DNA from: a virus
Strand: one strand, 5' to 3'
DNA length: 33,671 nt
Virus record (IMG/VR): IMGVR_UViG_3300037202_000162
Coordinates: 1 to 33,671 of that record
Shown here: piece by piece, positions 11,301 to 23,044 of the stretch
Numbering within the stretch: position 1 is the stretch's first letter
How the letters are laid out: every line of letters starts with the position of its first letter
Made by a program: the position numbers and the translations under genes
Notes under the pieces: generated by a model
What the model saw: only the letters and a program-made list of their open reading frames with translations
Told to the model about the DNA's origin: nothing
Database searches by the model: none

Positions 11301-11736
11301 CCCGGCGCTGGTCACGCTGATCGCCGATACGAGAGAGCAGGAGCCGTTTTCATTCGATTCCCGGCTGGTGATGGTGGAACGCCACGCGCTGCCAGCCGGG
11401 GATTACTCGGTCGCAGGCATGGAGAGCGTGGTCGCCGTGGAACGGAAGACGCTCGACGATTTCGTCTCCACGGTGATTCACCAGCGAGCCCGCTTCAGGC
11501 TTGAGCTTCGCAAACTGGCCGGCTATCGCGCGGCTTGCGTGGTGGTCGAGGCAGGCCTCCTGGAAGTGCTGCAGGGACGCTACCGGGGTGGCGCCCATCC
11601 GAACGCCGTGCTCGGCAACGCGCTCTCCATCACGCTCGACTACCGCATCCCTGTGTTTTTCTGTTCCAGCCGGCAGGCGGCCTGTCAGTTCGTGCAGGCC
11701 TATCTGCTCGGCGCTCACGCGAGGTGGAATGCATGA
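11287..11736 (+). CDS. ERCC4-type nuclease
   Basis: 149 residues. IADTREQEPF (12-21), GDYSV (38-42) and VERKTLDDFV (51-60) form the ERCC4/XPF nuclease core, with D14, D39, E52, K54 as likely metal-binding residues. The family cuts branched or flapped DNA and is common in phage replication modules. TTG 11287 is chosen because it lies 12 bases after GGAGG (11270-11274) and keeps the conserved start of the domain. The alternative GTG 11311 would cut into it. It overlaps the DUF669 gene by 14 bases and the next gene by ATGA. Confidence 0.85.
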   Translation: MSRSSPALVTLIADTREQEPFSFDSRLVMVERHALPAGDYSVAGMESVVAVERKTLDDFVSTVIHQRARFRLELRKLAGYRAACVVVEAGLLEVLQGRYRGGAHPNAVLGNALSITLDYRIPVFFCSSRQAACQFVQAYLLGAHARWNA

Positions 11737-13925
11737 CGAAGGCGGCAACCCAAGAGGTCCGATGTTCTCTCCGTGGCATCGTGGAAGTAGTTTTCTACTC
11801 GGGCCCGGCGTTCAGCGCCGGGCGCCTCCGCACATCCGACGGTCATCTCATCACTTTTGCCGGCAAGGTGTTTGCCAGGGAGAATGATGCGGTTCAGTTG
11901 GAAGGCCAGTGGACCAACCATCCGAAGTACGGCCGGCAATTCGCGGCCGACTGCATGGGCTTCGATCAGCAGATGGACGTGGATGGGCTGGCGAACTTCC
12001 TGGCGAATCACCCGGACGTGAAAGGGATCGGCCCGGTCAAAGCCCGGCTGATCGCCGACTATTTCGGCGCGCGCTTCGACGCGGCGATCCGCAGTCAGCC
12101 CGAGACCGTGGCTGCAATTGCGAAGGCGCCGGTGGAAGCGATCCTGGATCTCCAACGCATCTGGATTGCCAACAGCGACTTCAACGCCGCGATGACGTAC
12201 TTGTCCCGTTTCGGGCTCACGCATCACCAGGTGACAACGCTGGTGGGCAAATTCGGCAGCCAGGTGGTGCCGATCCTTGAGGGCGATCCCTATGTGCTGA
12301 TGCGGGAAATCACCGGCTACGGCTTCAAACGCGTCGACAAGATCGCCCGCAAGATGGGCACGCCGAAGGATCTGCCATCGCGGCTTCGTGCGGGGCTTCA
12401 CTACAGCGTGTTGGCGGCGCTCGATGATGGCGATTGCTGGGTCGAATACGAGGATCTGCTGGACCGCGCCAACACGCTGCTGGTGATGGACACGCTCGAT
12501 AGTCGCGAGGTGATCGAGGGGCATCTCGAAGCCCTGATTGCCGAGGGGCGGCTTTTCTCGCAACCGTTCGAGCGGTTGGTAGTTGCCCATCCGGAGATCC
12601 ACCGGATGGAGACGGAGCTCGCCGAAATCCTCAAAACCGCCGGCGAGCGCAGCCCGCACGCTGTCACGGAGGTAGAGCATCTTCTCGACGCTGAGGGCGG
12701 CGAATTGAATCCCGAGCAGCGCGATGCTGTTGGGAACGCTCTCAGGTTCTCCATCTCCCTGATGACGGGCGGCGCTGGTAGCGGCAAAACTTACGCTGTA
12801 TCGACGATTGCCAGCATCGCCGAGCGGCTGGAATTGAAGGTCGTGTTGGCTGCGCCCACTGGCAAAGCCGCCAAACGCCTCGAGGAAGTCGTCGGCCATG
12901 AAGCGAGCACGATTCATCGCCTGTTGGGCTTCAACGGCCAAACGTATTCGCGGGACGCGCTGAACCCGATTGATACCGACATTCTCGTCGTGGACGAGGT
13001 TTCGATGATGGATGTCCCGCTTGCGTGGCGGTTATTCCAGGCGGTGGATCGTAAGCGCACCGCCGTGGTTCTTGTTGGCGATCACAACCAGTTGCCGCCG
13101 GTGGGCCCGGGTAACCTCCTGCGGGACCTTGTGCGGTCCATGGCGATCCCGACCACGGTGCTGACACGGATCATTCGCCAGGCCGGTGTTCTGAAGGAGA
13201 ACTCCACCGCCATCCTCACCGGCGAGGTGCGGCCCACGTCGGATTCGTTCGTCGGCGCGCGGCGGCCGTGGTACGTCATCGACAAATTCGCGGACCGCGA
13301 GGATGTGCGCCGAATGCTGCTGCTCCTCTTCGAGGAAGTGCTGCAGGAGCGACTCGGTTACGACCTGATTCGTGAAGTTCAGGTGCTCACGCCGACCCAC
13401 AAAGGCCCGCTCGGCACGGTGGAGTTGAATATCGAGTTGCAGCGCCTCTTGCAGCAAAAGTTGTTCGGCGTCGATGTGGCTACCGTCGAGGCTGGCCACC
13501 GCGCGCGGCCATATCCGGGTGACAAGGTGATCCAGACGAAGAACGACTACGAATTGGGCGTCATGAACGGCGCGATGGGCATCGTGGTTGACGCCACGAA
13601 GGATGGCAGTCTTTCCGTCGATTTCGATGGCCGGCGAGTAGAAATCAAGAGTGGCAGCGATGCGCTCGGCAATATCCAGTTGGCCTACGCGACGTCGATC
13701 CACAAAGTACAGGGATCGGAGTTTCCCTGCGCGGTCGTGATCGCCCATAAGTCGCATTCCTTCATGCACCACCGCAATCTGCTGTACACCGCGGTAACGC
13801 GCGCGAAAAACTCCGTGATTCTTCTCGGGGACCGGTGGGGCATCGACAACTGCGCCGCTAAACGCCAGGTGGACCGCCGAAACACCTTTCTCTCCTTCCT
13901 GCTCCACCCGGAGACCCGGCAGTGA
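11733..13925 (+). CDS. RecD2-like DNA helicase (SF1B)
   Basis: 730 residues from ATG 11733, which overlaps the previous stop (ATGA); the longer open frame upstream is only read-through inside the ERCC4 gene. Order of parts: OB-like N-terminal region (about 8-75); helix-hairpin-helix segment DVKGIGPVKARLIADYFG (95-112) and TGYGFKRVDKIAR (194-206); helicase core with Walker A GGAGSGKT (346-353), motif Ia APTGKAAKRL (374-383), Walker B VVDEVSMMD (419-427), GDHNQLPPVGPG (449-460), and near the end HKVQGSEF and LLYTAVTRAK (motifs V and VI). It would unwind DNA 5' to 3' during replication or recombination. Length matches RecD2 proteins. It overlaps the primase gene by 4 bases. Confidence 0.93.
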   Translation: MTKAATQEVRCSLRGIVEVVFYSGPAFSAGRLRTSDGHLITFAGKVFARENDAVQLEGQWTNHPKYGRQFAADCMGFDQQMDVDGLANFLANHPDVKGIGPVKARLIADYFGARFDAAIRSQPETVAAIAKAPVEAILDLQRIWIANSDFNAAMTYLSRFGLTHHQVTTLVGKFGSQVVPILEGDPYVLMREITGYGFKRVDKIARKMGTPKDLPSRLRAGLHYSVLAALDDGDCWVEYEDLLDRANTLLVMDTLDSREVIEGHLEALIAEGRLFSQPFERLVVAHPEIHRMETELAEILKTAGERSPHAVTEVEHLLDAEGGELNPEQRDAVGNALRFSISLMTGGAGSGKTYAVSTIASIAERLELKVVLAAPTGKAAKRLEEVVGHEASTIHRLLGFNGQTYSRDALNPIDTDILVVDEVSMMDVPLAWRLFQAVDRKRTAVVLVGDHNQLPPVGPGNLLRDLVRSMAIPTTVLTRIIRQAGVLKENSTAILTGEVRPTSDSFVGARRPWYVIDKFADREDVRRMLLLLFEEVLQERLGYDLIREVQVLTPTHKGPLGTVELNIELQRLLQQKLFGVDVATVEAGHRARPYPGDKVIQTKNDYELGVMNGAMGIVVDATKDGSLSVDFDGRRVEIKSGSDALGNIQLAYATSIHKVQGSEFPCAVVIAHKSHSFMHHRNLLYTAVTRAKNSVILLGDRWGIDNCAAKRQVDRRNTFLSFLLHPETRQ

Positions 13926-16900
13926 CTGCGCCTCCGGTAGATGTCCACACTTACTACCGGCAGGTGACCGATGTGGACATCGGCGAGATCGCCCGCGAAC
14001 TGCTCGGCGATCGCATCACGCAGGAATCGCGGCAGAACCTGTTCTGCGATTGCCCGAACCACCGGAGCCAGTCGCACCGCTCGCTTCATGTCTGGCTCGA
14101 CAAGCAGGGCTGGTTCTGCCACGCCTGCAGCACCGGCGGCGATGTGCTGCAGTTGGTCGAGTTCGTCCGGTTCGGCGTGGTCACCCGCGGGCAGTCTGGC
14201 TCCATGCCGGATTCCCACCGGCAGGCACGCGACTTCCTGGCGGCACGCGTTCGACTGCCGCCGTTGTCGAAGCTCGCTTCGGGCAGCCCGGAACAGGCCG
14301 AGGAAGCTCACCAGCTCACGCTTCGCGTACGTGAGGCGCTGACCGCGTTTGCAGACGTGTATCACCAGCGCCTAGTCGGGAATCCGGAAGTTCTCGCCTG
14401 GTTTCGGGGGAAATACGGAATCAGCGAGGAGACTGTCAGCCGGCTCCAGATCGGGTATGCGGAGAATGGCCTGCCCAGCGTAGCGCGCACGTTGATGGAC
14501 GGGCCGGGCGCCTTCACCATGCGCGAACTGGCGGCCACCTCCGTCTTCCGGCCCACCGCGCAGGACGGGCTGGTCCCGTTCTTCGATGGCCGGATCGTCT
14601 TCCCATATTGGAGTCGCGGGCACGTCGTCTTCATGATCGGACGGAGCACGCCTTGGACACCGGATCACGAATGGGAAAAGTCGAAGTACAAGAAACTGGC
14701 GATCCGCAATGACCGCAACAACAGCCACGTTTCGCCGTACATCCGGAACGACGTCCTCTACAACGAGGATGTGCTGCTCGCGCGGCCTGAGCGGGTCATC
14801 ATCACTGAAGGCGTCACGGATTGCATTTCCCTGATGGAGCACGGATTCCCGGTGGTGTCGCCGGTGACGGTCCAGATCCGCGAGGCCGATTGGGAACGGT
14901 TGCTGCCGAAACTCGCCGGCGTGAAGACCGTCTACATCTGCCAGGACAACGAGGTTTCCGAGGCCGGGATGCAGGGTGCGCTGAAGACGGCGCGCATCCT
15001 AGCACAGCACGAAATTGTCACACGGGTGGCTGTCTTGCCTCTTGGCAAAAAGCAGCAGACCGCGCGCGAGACGCTCGCCAGTCTGCCTGGCGGCAGCGCC
15101 GAGGCCGACGCGTTGATGGCCGACGCGAAGATCGATGTTAACGAGTTCTTCGCGTCCGGCAAGACGGCGGCCGATTTCGAAGCCATCCTCGCGGCCGCGC
15201 AGACCCCGCTCGAACTGGCGATCTCGAAACTCAGTACCGATATCCCAGATGCTGATCTCAGCCGGTTGCTCAACCCTATCCTGTCGGAGGTCGGCCGGCT
15301 CGATCCCATTCAGCAGGACTGGCACCTCAGGTTGATCCAGACGCGGTGCGGCAAGCTCCGAATGCCGGTCGCCACGTTGCGGAAGCAGTTGAAGGTGGTG
15401 GAGATCGCCCGCCCAAAAACGAAGCCGGGCGCATCCAGCAACGGCGGCTTCCGGGATGACGCGGCTTCGGAGCCCGGCGCCGGGCTGGAGGCAACGCCGC
15501 TGCGAAGCATCCAGGTTAACAACCGGCAATTGCGCGACATCATAGCCGATGCGTGGAGCGCCATCCATAGCATCAATGACGCCAAGGAGCCGGACGGAGC
15601 GGAGCGGCCGTTCCTTTTCCAAAACGGCGGGGCCTTGGTGCGAATCGTCGGCACGGACGTCCACACGAGAATCGAGGCGCTCGGCGACACGGCAATGTAC
15701 GGAATTCTGGCTCGCAGCGCTGACTGGCACAACGTGACCGAGGAGGCGGTCACCGCCGCTCCGCCCTCGAGAGACACCGCACGCGACATGCTAGTGAACC
15801 CGGATCCGGGACTTCCGCCGCTCGATTCCGTAGTTCGCACCCCAACTTTTGGAAAGGACGCAATGCTGATTACCACTCCCGGTTACCATCGTTCGGACGC
15901 GCTTTGGATGTTCCCTGATGACTCCCTGGACATCCCGGAAGTCTCAACGAATCCGTCACGCGAACAGATCGCGTGCGCCAGGTCGTTGCTAGTGGATGAA
16001 CTGCTCGTGGACTTCCCGTTCGTGAAGGAGTCGGACCGCGCGCATGCCATTGCCGCGATCCTTCTCCCCTTTCTACGGCGCATGATCGCCGGTCTCGCTC
16101 CGATTCACCTGATCGAAGCTCCCACACAGGGCTCCGGTAAGGGGCTGCTGGCCAGCTTAATCTCCATCGTTTCGACGGGTTTGGCGGCCGAGGGCCGGAC
16201 CGTGCCGGAGAACGAAGACGAAGTCCGGAAGATGATTACCGCGGAGTTGGTCACGGGTCGCCCGATCATTCTTCTCGATAACCTCAGCGAAAAACGGGTG
16301 CTGGAGTCGTCCGCGCTGGCGTCGGTGGTGACCGTGCCGTATTGGACGGACCGCCTCCTGGGCGAATCCGAGATGTTGCACCTTCGCAACAATGCTCTCT
16401 GGCTGATGACCGGGAATAATCCGCGGCTGTCGGCTGAACTCGGCCGGCGCTGCGTCCGACTGCGCATCGATCCGCGAATCGACATGCCGTGGCTGCGCGG
16501 CGGATTCAGGCACCCGCTGATTACCGAATGGGCACAGGAGAATCGTTCGGCGCTCGTACATGCCGCGCTCACGCTGATTCAGGCCTGGATCGCAGCGGGA
16601 AAGCCACTGCACGAAACGCGCCTGGGGTCCTTCGAGAAATGGTCGGAGGTCATGGGCGGCGTACTGGACATCGCCGGAATTCCCGGCTTCCTGGGAAACC
16701 TGAACGAACTCTACGCGGCGTCCGACGGCGATGGCCAATTGTGGCGGGAATTCACCGGCGCCTGGTGGGACGAATTCCGCGCAGTGCCGAAGAAGGTCTG
16801 CGACCTTACCCAGTTCTGTGAAGATCGTGACCTGATGCAAAACGTGCTTGGCGATGGGTCGACACGCTCGCAACAGACCCGGTTGGGCAAAGCGCTCGCC

Positions 16901-17452
16901 ACGAAACGGGATCGGGTGTTCAACGGACTGACCGTAAAACGGATCGAGCAAGGCAAACACAAAGGTTCCGTCTTCTATGCGCTTGCCTCGGCTACCAGCA
17001 CTGAGGGGAATTCTCCGCAAGGTCTGGACCTCCTGGAGTTGCGGGATGGGGACATTGACGCCGACGGTGGGGACGTTGGCAATTTTGGGGACGTTGGAGA
17101 AAAACGTCCCCATTCACTCGGCCCAATAGATCCAATCAGTTGCAAACCACTTGGGGACGTTGGGGACGTTGGGGACCTTTTTCCAGCTTCCTCACGCGAG
17201 GAATTCTCTCTCTCACACTCGTACACACATACGTGCGAGAGCGGCGCGCACATAAAGGATAGCCCGGAAAACGTCCCCAATGTCCCCAACGTCCCCATCG
17301 TTCTCGTAACAGAAACAAAACACGACATTTCATTCGTGGGGACGTTTGGGGCAGACGTCCCCATAATTTCCACACAACGTCCCCAACCGGGAAACCGCGG
17401 CGCGGTTGACCTGGCCAAGTTGCCGGAGACTGCCGCCACGGAACCTCCATGA
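13922..17452 (+). CDS. Primase with C-terminal ATPase domain
   Basis: 1176 residues. Residues 40-75 are a CHC2-type zinc finger (C44, H47, C66, C69; FCHACSTGGD). Residues about 290-360 are a Toprim domain: IITEGVTD (293-300) and CQDNE (340-344). A C-terminal helicase-like ATPase domain contains a Walker A-like stretch APTQGSGKG with K740, a Walker B-like ILLDNLSE, and WLMTGNNPRLS. The protein would prime DNA and probably unwind it at the fork, so it combines primase and initiator/helicase roles. The last about 130 residues are low-complexity, with repeated GDV and NVP triplets (GDVGDVGD; NVPNVPNVP). They are encoded by a 9-bp DNA repeat array (17048-17384), and are probably shaped by the DNA rather than by protein function. 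Confidence 0.85.
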   Translation: MTAPPVDVHTYYRQVTDVDIGEIARELLGDRITQESRQNLFCDCPNHRSQSHRSLHVWLDKQGWFCHACSTGGDVLQLVEFVRFGVVTRGQSGSMPDSHRQARDFLAARVRLPPLSKLASGSPEQAEEAHQLTLRVREALTAFADVYHQRLVGNPEVLAWFRGKYGISEETVSRLQIGYAENGLPSVARTLMDGPGAFTMRELAATSVFRPTAQDGLVPFFDGRIVFPYWSRGHVVFMIGRSTPWTPDHEWEKSKYKKLAIRNDRNNSHVSPYIRNDVLYNEDVLLARPERVIITEGVTDCISLMEHGFPVVSPVTVQIREADWERLLPKLAGVKTVYICQDNEVSEAGMQGALKTARILAQHEIVTRVAVLPLGKKQQTARETLASLPGGSAEADALMADAKIDVNEFFASGKTAADFEAILAAAQTPLELAISKLSTDIPDADLSRLLNPILSEVGRLDPIQQDWHLRLIQTRCGKLRMPVATLRKQLKVVEIARPKTKPGASSNGGFRDDAASEPGAGLEATPLRSIQVNNRQLRDIIADAWSAIHSINDAKEPDGAERPFLFQNGGALVRIVGTDVHTRIEALGDTAMYGILARSADWHNVTEEAVTAAPPSRDTARDMLVNPDPGLPPLDSVVRTPTFGKDAMLITTPGYHRSDALWMFPDDSLDIPEVSTNPSREQIACARSLLVDELLVDFPFVKESDRAHAIAAILLPFLRRMIAGLAPIHLIEAPTQGSGKGLLASLISIVSTGLAAEGRTVPENEDEVRKMITAELVTGRPIILLDNLSEKRVLESSALASVVTVPYWTDRLLGESEMLHLRNNALWLMTGNNPRLSAELGRRCVRLRIDPRIDMPWLRGGFRHPLITEWAQENRSALVHAALTLIQAWIAAGKPLHETRLGSFEKWSEVMGGVLDIAGIPGFLGNLNELYAASDGDGQLWREFTGAWWDEFRAVPKKVCDLTQFCEDRDLMQNVLGDGSTRSQQTRLGKALATKRDRVFNGLTVKRIEQGKHKGSVFYALASATSTEGNSPQGLDLLELRDGDIDADGGDVGNFGDVGEKRPHSLGPIDPISCKPLGDVGDVGDLFPASSREEFSLSHSYTHTCESGAHIKDSPENVPNVPNVPIVLVTETKHDISFVGTFGADVPIISTQRPQPGNRGAVDLAKLPETAATEPP
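17048..17384. repeat. Bidirectional array of 9-bp GGGGACGTT repeats (13 copies)
   Basis: Seven copies on the + strand start at 17048 (ATT variant), 17069, 17087, 17153, 17162, 17171 (ACCTT variant) and 17338. Six inverted copies (AACGTCCCC) start at 17103, 17270, 17279 (one change), 17288, 17354 (one change) and 17376. Copies 17153-17179 and 17270-17296 are each three in tandem, forming a large imperfect inverted repeat. Copies 17087 and 17103 form a perfect 9-bp hairpin with a 7-base loop. The array keeps the reading frame of the primase because 9 bases are three codons. Spacing is irregular and there are no spacers of fixed length, so it is not a CRISPR. An origin or protein-binding locus fits best. 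Confidence 0.9.
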
Positions 17453-17511
17453 TGCGGGCCATCGCCACCCATTCGGATTTCAGGCGTTCGCATTCAACCA
17501 GGAGAGAAACG

Positions 17512-18213
17512 ATGACCACGGTATTGACGGAGCAATGTGCCAGGTCGGCTGAGGACCCGCCATCTGGCGACTCGCCGGGTTGCCTGTTCGTGTCGACTTC
17601 CCTCGCAACCTGGACGACAGCGAACCCGGAGCAGTTCGCCCGAGACTTCCAGATCAACGACACGGTGTACCGGAGGCTCGATCCCGATTACTACGCCTGG
17701 CTGCGGTCGCGCATGGCCGTTGCCAAGAGGGCCGCGACTGCCGAGCATCTCGCTCCGGCCGCGTTTGAAGATTTGCGCGTGCGGTTCAACGCCGTGCATG
17801 ATTGGGCCGTTAAGCACTTTGGCGAGGAACCACTGCTCGCTGCGGTGCGGACATTTCGTTCGGGCGACTACGATCCCCCGGTAGCCGAAGACGAAGGCCG
17901 GCATGTCCCGGTGCCGGGCCCGCGAAAATCCGCCGCTGATGACATCTCGCCGGAGGCAATGGCCTTGGTCGATTCGATCAGCGAGCAGGCACAATCGCTT
18001 GGCTGGAAGCGTGAAAGGCTGTATGCCGCGGGTGGCGGCCGTATTTTCGCCCCTGATCGCGGCCTCATCTGCTTTCTGAAGGCCGGCGACCGGATCGGCG
18101 AAGTCACGCTCCAGTCCATCGAGATCATTCACCCGCAGCCATCCGAAGTGCGCCATCGATTCTACAACCCGGATGTGGACCAACCGTGGGTGAAGAAAAT
18201 TGCGAGCTCGTGA
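17512..18213 (+). CDS. Protein of unknown function
   Basis: 233 residues from ATG 17512, which has AGGAG at 17500-17504. An earlier in-frame ATG at 17449 overlaps the primase stop but has no such site. The N-terminal 25 residues are rich in Thr, Ser and Pro. Residues about 30-110 are helical, with WTTANPEQFARDFQIND, YYAWLRSRM and VRFNAVHDWAVKHFG. The C-terminal 80 residues look beta-rich (GRIFAPDRGLICFLKAGDRI; VTLQSIEIIHP). No family recognised, no catalytic motif. It is the last gene of the replication operon before a 155-base gap. Confidence 0.65.
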   Translation: MTTVLTEQCARSAEDPPSGDSPGCLFVSTSLATWTTANPEQFARDFQINDTVYRRLDPDYYAWLRSRMAVAKRAATAEHLAPAAFEDLRVRFNAVHDWAVKHFGEEPLLAAVRTFRSGDYDPPVAEDEGRHVPVPGPRKSAADDISPEAMALVDSISEQAQSLGWKRERLYAAGGGRIFAPDRGLICFLKAGDRIGEVTLQSIEIIHPQPSEVRHRFYNPDVDQPWVKKIASS

Positions 18214-19307: not shown

Positions 19308-20846
19308 ATGTCCACACTTCCGCCGACCATTACGCCCGCGATGGCGCGGCTCATCGAGATCTGGCCCACCGACCGTTTGGTGCCGTACGCCAAGAACGCG
19401 CGCACGCATTCTTCGGAGCAGGTTGCGCAGATCGCGGCGTCCATCGTGGAGTTTGGATTTGTGAATCCGATCCTTGTCGATTCCACGGATGGGATCGTTG
19501 CCGGCCACGGTCGCCTCCTTGCTGCCCGCAAGTTGGGTCTTGCGGAGGTTCCGGTGGTGGTATTGGGCCACTTGAGCGAGATTCAACGGCGGGCGTACAT
19601 CATCGCGGACAACCAGCTTGCACTTAATGCCGGGTGGAACGATGAGCTTCTACGGGGCGTATTGGAGTCGCTTGGGGCGGATGGATTCAACCTGTCGCTG
19701 GTGGGGTTCTCCGACGAGGAACTCGTCGTGCTGCTTGGCAGCGCCGAACCGGAGCCTGCCGCCGCCGTCGAGGAAGAAGCGGTTCCCGAACCTCCCGCGC
19801 AGCCGGTTACGATGCCCGGGGATGTGTGGTTGATCGGACGTCACCGTCTGATCTGTGGCGACTGCCGGGACGCCGATGTCGTCGGGAAGTTGATGGCCGG
19901 CGCCAATGCGAACATGGCGATCACGTCGCCGCCCTACGCCACGCAGCGCGAGTACGATCCATCAAGCGGGTTCAAGCCGGTGCCACCCGAGGAGTACGTG
20001 GAGTGGTACCGCGCGGTGGCCGCAGGCATCGAGTCGGTGCTGGCACCGGACGGTTCCTACTTCCTGAACATCAAGGCGCACGCCGACGAGGGCGAGCGGA
20101 ATCTATACGTGATGGACCTGGTGCTGGCTCACCGGCGGGCGTGGGGCTGGCGGTTCGTGGATGAATTCTGCTGGCGGAAAACTGACAATGGCGTGCCTGG
20201 CGGTTGGCAAAACCGCTTCAAGAACGCATGGGAACCTGTGTTCCACTTCTGCCGCCAGCAGCAGATCAAGTTCCGCGCGGAGGCGGTGAGTCACGAGTCG
20301 GAGGACTGCTTCGACTACTCGCCCGACAATCCGAAATCGAACTCCGGGAGCGGTCTCCTGGGGACCGGGGCGCGCGGAGATGCGGCAGGAAAGCTCGGTG
20401 CCGGTGACGACGCAGGACGACATCGGGGAGCAGCGCGCCCCAGCAACGTAGTCGACGTGAAGACCGAGAGCAGCCAGGGATCGCACTCGGCGCCGTTCCC
20501 ACGCGCGCTGGTCGAGTTCTTCGTGAAAGCGTTCTCCGATCCCGGCGATGTAGTCTTTGATCCCTTCCTCGGGAGCGGAACCACGATGGCCGCTGCCCAC
20601 GTGCTGGGCCGCGCGGGATACGGCTGCGAGATCTCGCCGGCGTACTGCGACGTGATCCTGCGCCGGATCGAGAAGTTGGCCGAAACAGAACCGGTCCTTG
20701 CGGAGACCGGAAAGACGTTCAGCGAAGTCGCGGCGGGCCGGGGTGTCTCTGCAGTGGAGGGTACCGATCTGCGCCAACGCGACTCGAAATCCATTCGCCG
20801 CAAACCCAACGGCATGCCTTGCTACGGAGCCAAAGGCAAGCCGTAA
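19308..20846 (+). CDS. ParB-domain DNA methyltransferase, TSPPY type
   Basis: 512 residues from ATG 19308 with AGGA 15 bases upstream. Residues about 15-140 are a ParB-like domain (ARTHSSEQVAQIAASI 31-46, GIVAGHGRLLAARKLG 62-77, ADNQLALNAGW 100-110). Residues about 170-450 are a beta-class DNA methyltransferase: motif IV TSPPY (206-210) before motif I DPFLGSGTT (418-426). It uses S-adenosylmethionine to methylate an amino group of DNA; TSPPY is more common for N4-cytosine, but adenine is possible. Residues about 340-400 are a low-complexity Gly/Ala/Asp-rich insert between the two motifs. No partner restriction enzyme is seen, so it is a solitary phage enzyme, likely protecting the genome or marking it. 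Confidence 0.9.
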   Translation: MSTLPPTITPAMARLIEIWPTDRLVPYAKNARTHSSEQVAQIAASIVEFGFVNPILVDSTDGIVAGHGRLLAARKLGLAEVPVVVLGHLSEIQRRAYIIADNQLALNAGWNDELLRGVLESLGADGFNLSLVGFSDEELVVLLGSAEPEPAAAVEEEAVPEPPAQPVTMPGDVWLIGRHRLICGDCRDADVVGKLMAGANANMAITSPPYATQREYDPSSGFKPVPPEEYVEWYRAVAAGIESVLAPDGSYFLNIKAHADEGERNLYVMDLVLAHRRAWGWRFVDEFCWRKTDNGVPGGWQNRFKNAWEPVFHFCRQQQIKFRAEAVSHESEDCFDYSPDNPKSNSGSGLLGTGARGDAAGKLGAGDDAGRHRGAARPSNVVDVKTESSQGSHSAPFPRALVEFFVKAFSDPGDVVFDPFLGSGTTMAAAHVLGRAGYGCEISPAYCDVILRRIEKLAETEPVLAETGKTFSEVAAGRGVSAVEGTDLRQRDSKSIRRKPNGMPCYGAKGKP

Positions 20847-21515: not shown

Positions 21516-21791
21516 ATGAATACTCTGCTGATCATCCTCAAGCTTTTCCCCCTGATCTTGGCAGCGGTCCAAGCCGTTGAGCAAGCGATACCGCTGCCCG
21601 GTCAGGGAAACAAAAAGCTGGAACTCGTGCTCGACGTGCTCAAGTCCGCTTATGACGGGAGCGCGGACTTGGCGAGCCAATTCAGTTGGGACAAGCTCGT
21701 CGCGGTAGTCGTGCCGATGATCGCCAGGATCGTCGATCTGCACAACGCGCTAGGCCTGTTCCAGAAACCCGCTCAACCCAAACTCGTATGA
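21516..21791 (+). CDS. Small protein with hydrophobic N-terminus
   Basis: 91 residues from ATG 21516, with GGAG about 12 bases upstream. Residues 3-18 are hydrophobic (TLLIILKLFPLILAAV), then comes PLPGQGNKKLELVLDVLKS, and VVVPMIARIVDLHNALGLF near the end. It may sit at the membrane or be a small helical phage protein; holin is possible but the length and single hydrophobic stretch do not decide it. Its stop overlaps the start of the second methyltransferase (ATGA). Confidence 0.6.
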   Translation: MNTLLIILKLFPLILAAVQAVEQAIPLPGQGNKKLELVLDVLKSAYDGSADLASQFSWDKLVAVVVPMIARIVDLHNALGLFQKPAQPKLV

Positions 21792-23044
21792 CGAACCTGC
21801 AGGTGGTGACGTGGCCGGTTGAGAAGCTGATTCCTTACGCCCGGAATGCGCGCACACATAGTGCGGAACAGGTCGCCCAAGTCGCGGCGTCGATCGCCGA
21901 GTTTGGGTGGACGAATCCGATTCTTGCCGGTGCAGATGGAATCGTTATCGCCGGCCACGCGCGCCTGCTCGCTGCTCGTAAACTGGGCATGACCGAAGTT
22001 CCGGTCATCGTCCTCGATCACCTGACCGAATCCCAACGCCGCGCGTTGGTGCTGGCCGACAACCGACTGGCACTCAACGCCGGATGGGATGAGGAAATGC
22101 TACGCGTGGAGATGGCCGCGCTCGATGAGGGCGGGTTCAATCTCGAGGTGGTCGGATTCACCGATGAAGAGATCGAAGGACTGCTTCGCGACCCCGAAGA
22201 CGTCCACCTCGGCAACACTGACGATGACGCTGTGCCGGAGACTCCGGAGAGTGCAATCACTGTGCCGGGTGATGTCTGGCTCTTGGGCCGGCACCGGTTG
22301 CTCTGCGGGGACTCCGTTCAGATGGAGTGCTTAGAGAAGGTCCTCGCCGGTGGCCTGGCCGATATGGTTTTCTGCGATCCACCGTACAACGTGAACTACG
22401 GCGCGACGATGAAGGACAAACTCCGCGGCAAGAAGCGGAAGATCGCCAACGACGACCTGGGCCAGGACTTCGAACAGTTCCTGCGGGACGCATGCGTGAA
22501 CATGCTGGCGGTCACCAAGGGAGCGATCTACGTCTGCATGTCCTCGTCAGAGATCCACACGCTGCAGCGTGTATTCCGCGAAGCGGGCGGGCACTGGTCC
22601 ACTTTCGTCGTGTGGGCGAAGAACACTTTCACGATGGGGCGGTCTGACTACCAGCGCCAGTACGAACCGATCCTCTACGGATGGAAGGAAGGCACGGATC
22701 ACTTTTGGTGCGGTGCCCGCGACCAGGGCGATGTGTGGTTCATCAAGAAGCCGCACGTTAACGACCTGCACCCGACGATGAAGCCGGTCGAGTTGGTGGA
22801 GCGAGCCGTCCGGAACAGCAGCAAGGACCGCGACACGGTGCTCGATCCGTTCGGCGGGTCTGGCACGACACTGATCGCGTGCGAGAAGACCAGCCGCCAG
22901 GCGCGCCTCATCGAATTGGAGCCGAAGTACTGCGACGTGATCATCCGCCGATGGCAGGAGTTTAGCGGCGCGGAGGCGTCGTTGGATGGTGACGGTAGAA
23001 GCTTCACCGCGATTGCCGCGGAGCGAAACCCAGTGGCGGCGTGA
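21788..23044 (+). CDS. ParB-domain DNA methyltransferase, DPPY type
   Basis: 418 residues from ATG 21788, which overlaps the previous stop. The ParB-like domain (residues about 8-130) is very similar to that of the gene at 19308: NARTHSAEQVAQVAASI, AGHARLLAARKLG and ADNRLALNAGW. The methyltransferase domain is different: motif IV DPPY (197-200) and motif I DPFGGSGTT (353-361). DPPY is the usual signature of N6-adenine enzymes. The two proteins are paralogous at the N-terminus but probably modify different bases or sites. The gene continues 59 bases into the start of the next one. A phage DNA protection or mark role is inferred. Confidence 0.9.
   Translation: MTNLQVVTWPVEKLIPYARNARTHSAEQVAQVAASIAEFGWTNPILAGADGIVIAGHARLLAARKLGMTEVPVIVLDHLTESQRRALVLADNRLALNAGWDEEMLRVEMAALDEGGFNLEVVGFTDEEIEGLLRDPEDVHLGNTDDDAVPETPESAITVPGDVWLLGRHRLLCGDSVQMECLEKVLAGGLADMVFCDPPYNVNYGATMKDKLRGKKRKIANDDLGQDFEQFLRDACVNMLAVTKGAIYVCMSSSEIHTLQRVFREAGGHWSTFVVWAKNTFTMGRSDYQRQYEPILYGWKEGTDHFWCGARDQGDVWFIKKPHVNDLHPTMKPVELVERAVRNSSKDRDTVLDPFGGSGTTLIACEKTSRQARLIELEPKYCDVIIRRWQEFSGAEASLDGDGRSFTAIAAERNPVAA

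Follow-up and report, generated by a model that had tools for sequence, protein, structure and literature searches.

An iteron array at the 3' end of a primase-helicase gene as the probable replication origin of an acidobacterial tailed phage

The replication origins of the Staphylococcus aureus pathogenicity islands (SaPI) and of the phage-inducible chromosomal islands (PICI) lie directly 3' of rep and consist of two sets of iterons around an AT-rich region, and Rep reads these iterons with its C-terminal domain (PMC6092414, PMC7581432). We have analyzed the full IMG/VR record IMGVR_UViG_3300037202_000162 (33,671 bases, referred to here as the window), in which a dense array of a 9-bp word overlaps the end of a gene coding for a primase-helicase. 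This array is most probably a replication origin of the SaPI/PICI type belonging to an acidobacterial tailed phage, with the primase-helicase as the proposed reader of the word and with word and reader apparently changing together. By its gene content the element is no satellite but a tailed phage or prophage, since the window itself encodes terminase, portal, head protease and decoration proteins (PHROG annotation), whereas PICI are satellites that depend on the virion proteins of a helper phage. The likeness to SaPI and PICI includes a D5/VapE-type helicase with a C-terminal domain, here a putative DNA reader, and iterons that differ between elements (PMC6092414, PMC7581432). Besides the virion genes, the differences are that here a DnaG/Toprim primase is fused to the helicase, that the open reading frame (ORF) of the initiator extends through the candidate origin in the group that we call type I, and that two different helicase modules go with one architecture.

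Thirteen copies of GGGGACGTT, nine exact and four with one mismatch, are found within positions 17048-17384. Seven are direct (17048, 17069, 17087, 17153, 17162, 17171 and 17338) and six inverted (17103, 17270, 17279, 17288, 17354 and 17376), and this recount agrees with the original prediction. All nine exact copies of the window sit in the array, against a shuffle expectation of 0.41 for the window, and the best 9-mer family in 100 dinucleotide shuffles of 16901-17500 had five copies. The array is roughly symmetric around position 17216. From the left, the first copy (GGGGACATT, 17048-17056) and the second (17069-17077), both on the plus strand, are followed by a hairpin at 17086-17112 made of copies 3 (plus) and 4 (minus), with a stem (17086-17095/17103-17112) perfect over 10 bp and a 7-nt loop. 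Then come a plus-strand tandem triplet of period 9 (17153-17179), a central spacer (17180-17269) that is a candidate melting region (AT 0.46 vs 0.37 in the ORF), and a minus-strand triplet of the same period (17270-17296) facing the first one. The right side is completed by a second hairpin at 17337-17363 (copies 11, plus, and 12, minus; stem 17337-17345/17355-17363) and by the last copy on the minus strand (17376-17384). The facing triplets and the perfect hairpin had been seen correctly before. Two plus-strand boxes that are not copies of the word, one around CCAATAGATCCAATCAGTTGCA between the left hairpin and the tandem block (17122-17145) and another, GTAACAGAAACAAAACACGA, at 17306-17325, are partly conserved in an alignment of 21 type I arrays. 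The earlier placement of the array inside the primase gene holds for the ORF, whose 3' end it occupies, but not for the folded part of the protein, which ends at about residue 1023, the first copy of the word being at residue 1043.

The comparison set consists of some 50 related loci in phages and prophages, most of them acidobacterial and a few myxobacterial or proteobacterial. A search with the primase gave 15 related virus loci, and more virus and genome loci were added in later searches. The hosts are mostly Acidobacteria (Bryobacterales, Solibacter), with a few Myxococcales or Proteobacteria bins, and many of the loci are metagenome bins or fragments. As the original prediction proposed to check, most relatives whose contig extends far enough have a dense two-strand array at the 3' end of the primase gene or close to it. 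L050 and L063 are among the few without it, the other exceptions being contigs that end before the site, and in L054 and L056 the array is some 1.5-2.6 kb beyond the primase. What had not been foreseen is that the word itself is lineage-specific. It is GGGGACGTT in the window, L008 and L037, GGGGAACGTT in L005, L038, L039 and L041, GGGGACCTT in L007, L022, L043, L044 and L047, GGGGATGTT in L021 and L060, GGTGGAGAC(G)TT in L010, L011, L020 and L040, GGTGGGGACATT or similar in L006 and L009, TCGGGATCTT in L023-L025 and GCGGACCT in L042. Other words are GGTGGAGACGTT, GTGTTCCAGT with near words, GTGTCCCAGT, GCGTCCCAGT, AGGTCCACGT, GGTGCACGT and CCGGACTT. There are more than 12 distinct words among the related loci, and further ones in distant phages. 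One word is common to most copies of an array and a switch affects most copies together, with mixed-word arrays in L011, L023, L040 and L044. In L012 (5001-8521) several frameshifts interrupt the coding frame of the primase-helicase, and both GGGGACGT and GGGAACGT occur as words in the array; the apparently divergent C-terminus of the protein was rejected, being explained by the frameshifts, and this locus was excluded from the association tests.

Under the different words the architecture is shared. In the 44 arrays that could be parsed, two mainly inward-facing blocks surround a spacer of 104 +/- 13 bp, usually in the order FFFRFF(F)|RRRFRR(R), with a type II form RRRRRR|FFRFF. The AT content of the spacer is 0.50 vs 0.38 in the flanks and is higher in 42 of the 44, the two exceptions looking misparsed (the script split L010 and L028 at the wrong gap). 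As in SaPI and PICI, two iteron sets flank an AT-richer region, in the window too, and the array lies immediately past the primase-helicase gene or extends over its 3' end.

The gene in question (13922-17452, plus strand, 1176 amino acids) was annotated with Pfam, PHROG (10537/19930/47), an AlphaFold model and fold matches in PDB. It codes, in this order, for a Zn-ribbon/DnaG_N/Toprim N-terminal part, a D5-like AAA+ helicase of type I, a winged-helix end and the tail that overlaps the array. The acidobacterial loci have orthologues of RecD, of the N-terminal primase part and of the gene that follows the array, but their C-terminal helicase is of two kinds, type I (the PHROG 10537 type of the window) and type II (VapE). 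We observed that one DnaG-like N-terminal primase can be fused to either kind in otherwise similar phages, a clean exchange of modules (regions compared: window 13922-15445 against 15497-17011; L013-L019, L048). The word families accord with the kind of helicase: in L048 an N-terminal part sharing 80% identity with that of the window goes with a VapE module and the word GCGTCCCAGT, and L007, 72% identical in the same part, has a type I module and GGGGACCTT. Within type I, identity of the C-terminal module predicted a shared word with an area under the receiver operating characteristic curve (AUC) of 0.877 (maximum after label shuffling, 0.73), vs 0.60 for RecD, 0.71 for the N-terminal part and 0.68 for the gene after the array, and the module was ahead of these competitors in at least 99% of the subsets. 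The type I gene trees point in the same direction, the minimum number of word changes being 8 for the C-terminal and 8 for the N-terminal primase parts, and 11 for both RecD and the downstream gene. By these sequence comparisons, the word follows the module of C-terminal helicase plus winged helix better than any neighbouring gene tested.

The best 60-column stretch (AUC 0.908) is in the last part of the type I module, where the winged-helix domain proposed as word reader is predicted (about residues 936-1023; 16727-16990, plus strand). The AlphaFold model of the module (mean predicted local distance difference test score, pLDDT, of 84) has an AAA+ core and a winged helix with helices at 411-427, 434-443 and 456-469 and strands at 478-483 and 493-498 (model numbering), ending 20 residues before the first copy of the word. 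Its best fold matches in PDB are poxvirus D5/E5, AsfvPrimPol, SaPI5 PriRep, PriRep1 with dsDNA and SCCmec Cch, with modest whole-model template modelling (TM) scores of 0.3-0.5; a shared fold by itself demonstrates no function. The family assignment of the module rests on these fold matches because a PDB sequence search with it gave nothing significant. The type II C-terminus is VapE and its profile matches SaPI PriRep1 at 1.7e-57. The predicted fold is that of a self-loading D5-like/VapE helicase whose C-terminal domain would be the one that reads DNA.

In the mechanism that we propose, the iteron copies form two mainly inward-facing blocks around an AT-richer spacer of about 100 bp at the 3' end of the initiator gene, and the C-terminal winged helix of the primase-helicase would make the contact with the word. 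Rings of the D5-like helicase would then assemble on both blocks and melt the spacer, and the Toprim primase part of the same protein would prime. From one lineage to the next, word and reader would change in step, so that every lineage would have a private origin. From the analogy with SaPI and PICI we infer binding, melting and origin function alike. The origin reading is well supported because the match to these elements is close in layout, place and protein class. Among the sites named in the original prediction (origin, site for the primase itself, or partition site) the first is supported and the second is the best sub-reading, given the D5-like/VapE C-terminal helicase and the published SaPI/PICI layout; the partition site is not supported (see below).

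Other described systems share parts of this arrangement. In the putative origin of the staphylococcal cassette chromosome mec (SCCmec), too, iterons follow the helicase gene, and the isolated C-terminal domain of Cch2 binds them (PMC7581432), but there are just three of them (AAGTG) and the primase is not fused to the helicase. The alpha protein of phage P4, by its description, unites a Toprim primase and a helicase with origin binding by a winged helix, and here too there are iterons (PMC4234260). No report of arrays of such kind in acidobacterial phages was found in the open-licence literature. The origin of the Streptococcus thermophilus phage Sfi21 is located downstream of its primase gene. 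To see how general the pattern is, we took 24 named phages or satellites that encode distant helicases of the type I or VapE kind, hand-picked from the match lists, so that the resulting number is not a rate. An array was accepted if it was just past the gene and beat both shuffles and the rest of the locus. Comparable arrays were found in nine of the 24, one of them archaeal: vir525 of Methanosarcinales (ACCCGCA), Marinobacter PS3 (GGGGTGA), phiSP15-1 (TGCAACA), phiSP119-1 (AAGGGAC), RcMcLean (ACTGAGC), Jacinda (CTGCAAC), phiFL4A (GTATCCA), Javan551 (ATGGTAC) and IME1320_01 (TGTCACA). DSS3_MAL1, RcXuper and phiCbK, which have relatives of the type I helicase, showed no such array just downstream. 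In the Cellulophaga phage phi38:2 we observed a 7-mer repeated 11 times in a 500-bp stretch that is distant from the 3' end of the VirE gene.

Several results weigh against the origin reading or narrow it. The other 15 distant phages failed the array test, some being weaker and some negative. In the seven contigs for which GC skew was calculated, no switch coincided with the array. Among type II loci the C-terminal module led by a narrow margin (AUC 0.760 vs 0.728 for RecD, ahead in 93% of the subsets), and the word classes behind the AUC values of both types were set by eye. Linkage accounts for part of the association between module and word, the module being adjacent to the array; the gene after the array is adjacent to it as well, yet tracks the word poorly.

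Among the alternative explanations, we consider it very unlikely that the array acts as a structured nucleic acid (a cruciform or an RNA stem) and not as a set of protein sites. The precedent is the archaeal plasmid pRN1, with an origin directly downstream of a primase-helicase gene that encodes a C-terminal winged helix (PMC4234260). That origin is a single large stem-loop without iterons, unlike the iteron arrays found here, and the pRN1 protein has an archaeo-eukaryotic primase domain. The folding is strong, with a z of -8.1 as DNA and of -4.2 to -13.6 as RNA in 12 of 14 arrays, but inverted copies produce stems automatically, z is only -1.4 in L016 and -3.0 in L028, and type II arrays such as that of L053 do not retain the hairpins. 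Besides, the third copy on the left side (GGGGACCTT) mismatches with its partner (AACGTCCCC) in the window, where no compensating change is seen, and the same holds for L005.

A centromere-like partition site, bound by a ParB-like protein such as the ParB-methyltransferases encoded at 19308-20846 and 21686-23044, is likewise very unlikely. Centromeres may also carry clustered iterons in both orientations, and a ParB_N domain is indeed encoded near the array. However, L009, L021, L024, L031, L037 and L043 have the array and no homologue of the ParB-methyltransferase (within flanks of about 5 kb, some contigs being short), and the arrays of the distant phages come after the primase-helicase gene. 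An operator array, bound by a transcription factor that regulates the gene downstream, is highly unlikely: repeated sites do precede a gene, and some relatives have a stretch resembling TATAAAG in the spacer, but the downstream gene differs among distant array-bearing phages, the word cluster is single-copy in each contig checked, and 12-14 sites in two facing blocks would be unusual for an operator. Finally, a repeat selected in the protein (GDV/NVP) and reflected in the DNA through codon use has a practically negligible probability, for although 10 of the 13 copies share one codon phase, the words are on both strands, the tail has lost its codon-position bias and the array persists where no tail is translated.

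The last two observations deserve detail. In type II loci the primase is shorter and stops before the array, which is then intergenic, and in L010 the stop codon of the primase ORF is inside the array; the protein tail is therefore a by-product of the DNA array, as originally proposed. Third codon positions accounted for 0.67-0.76 of the differences in the gene body but for 0.40-0.50 in the tail, as counted in six pairs of relatives, and in the tail nonsynonymous changes outnumbered synonymous ones. The word bases, in the two pairs measured, differed at 1 of 117 positions in L008 (32 of 220 in the rest of the array) and at 6 of 117 in L037 (41 of 220), so the array outlasts the tail and selection acts on the DNA and not on the protein. 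Neither is the word a host repeat family, another possibility raised at the outset, because a search of two host assemblies placed the exact or near-exact tandem words solely in the prophage array. The Bryobacterales F-183 assembly had two further matches at two mismatches, and a backward control pattern also gave two.

Regarding the surrounding genes, a RecD2-like helicase (11535-13925, plus strand; Pfam/PHROG) is encoded upstream and another gene (17449-18213, plus strand) after the array, both kept in most acidobacterial relatives. The latter had no family match in Pfam or PHROG, and has the conserved pattern LFVSTSLxTWTTxxPExFARDxQINDTxYRRLDPxYYAWLRSRM. The two ParB-methyltransferase genes mentioned above are fusions of ParB_N with an N6/N4 DNA methyltransferase-like part; the domain scan covered 19308-20846, and 21686-23044 was judged from its sequence. 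Homologues of the former are found downstream of the array in many relatives. An Rfam scan of the window matched no RNA family.

With these arrays a very similar design is placed in full tailed phages, which suggests that the design goes with a class of initiator helicases and not with satellites as such. Possible drivers of the rewriting of the word are an origin-directed nuclease or incompatibility. In the PICI-like elements (PLE) the origin iterons bound by RepA also diversify, and escape from the origin-directed nuclease Odn has been shown (PMC8263062), although the initiator is of another family and the iterons are semi-palindromic and of about 30 bp. We see even chances that a single origin design is common to many bacterial tailed phages and to at least one archaeal phage. 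In this design the primase-helicase would read iterons situated where its own gene ends, and the word would be rewritten along with the reader, giving a private code per lineage; the rewriting would be fast, under pressure from incompatibility or from competitors that target the origin. The lineages with matched words and readers constitute a natural series on how the specificity of a winged helix changes alongside a dozen sites.
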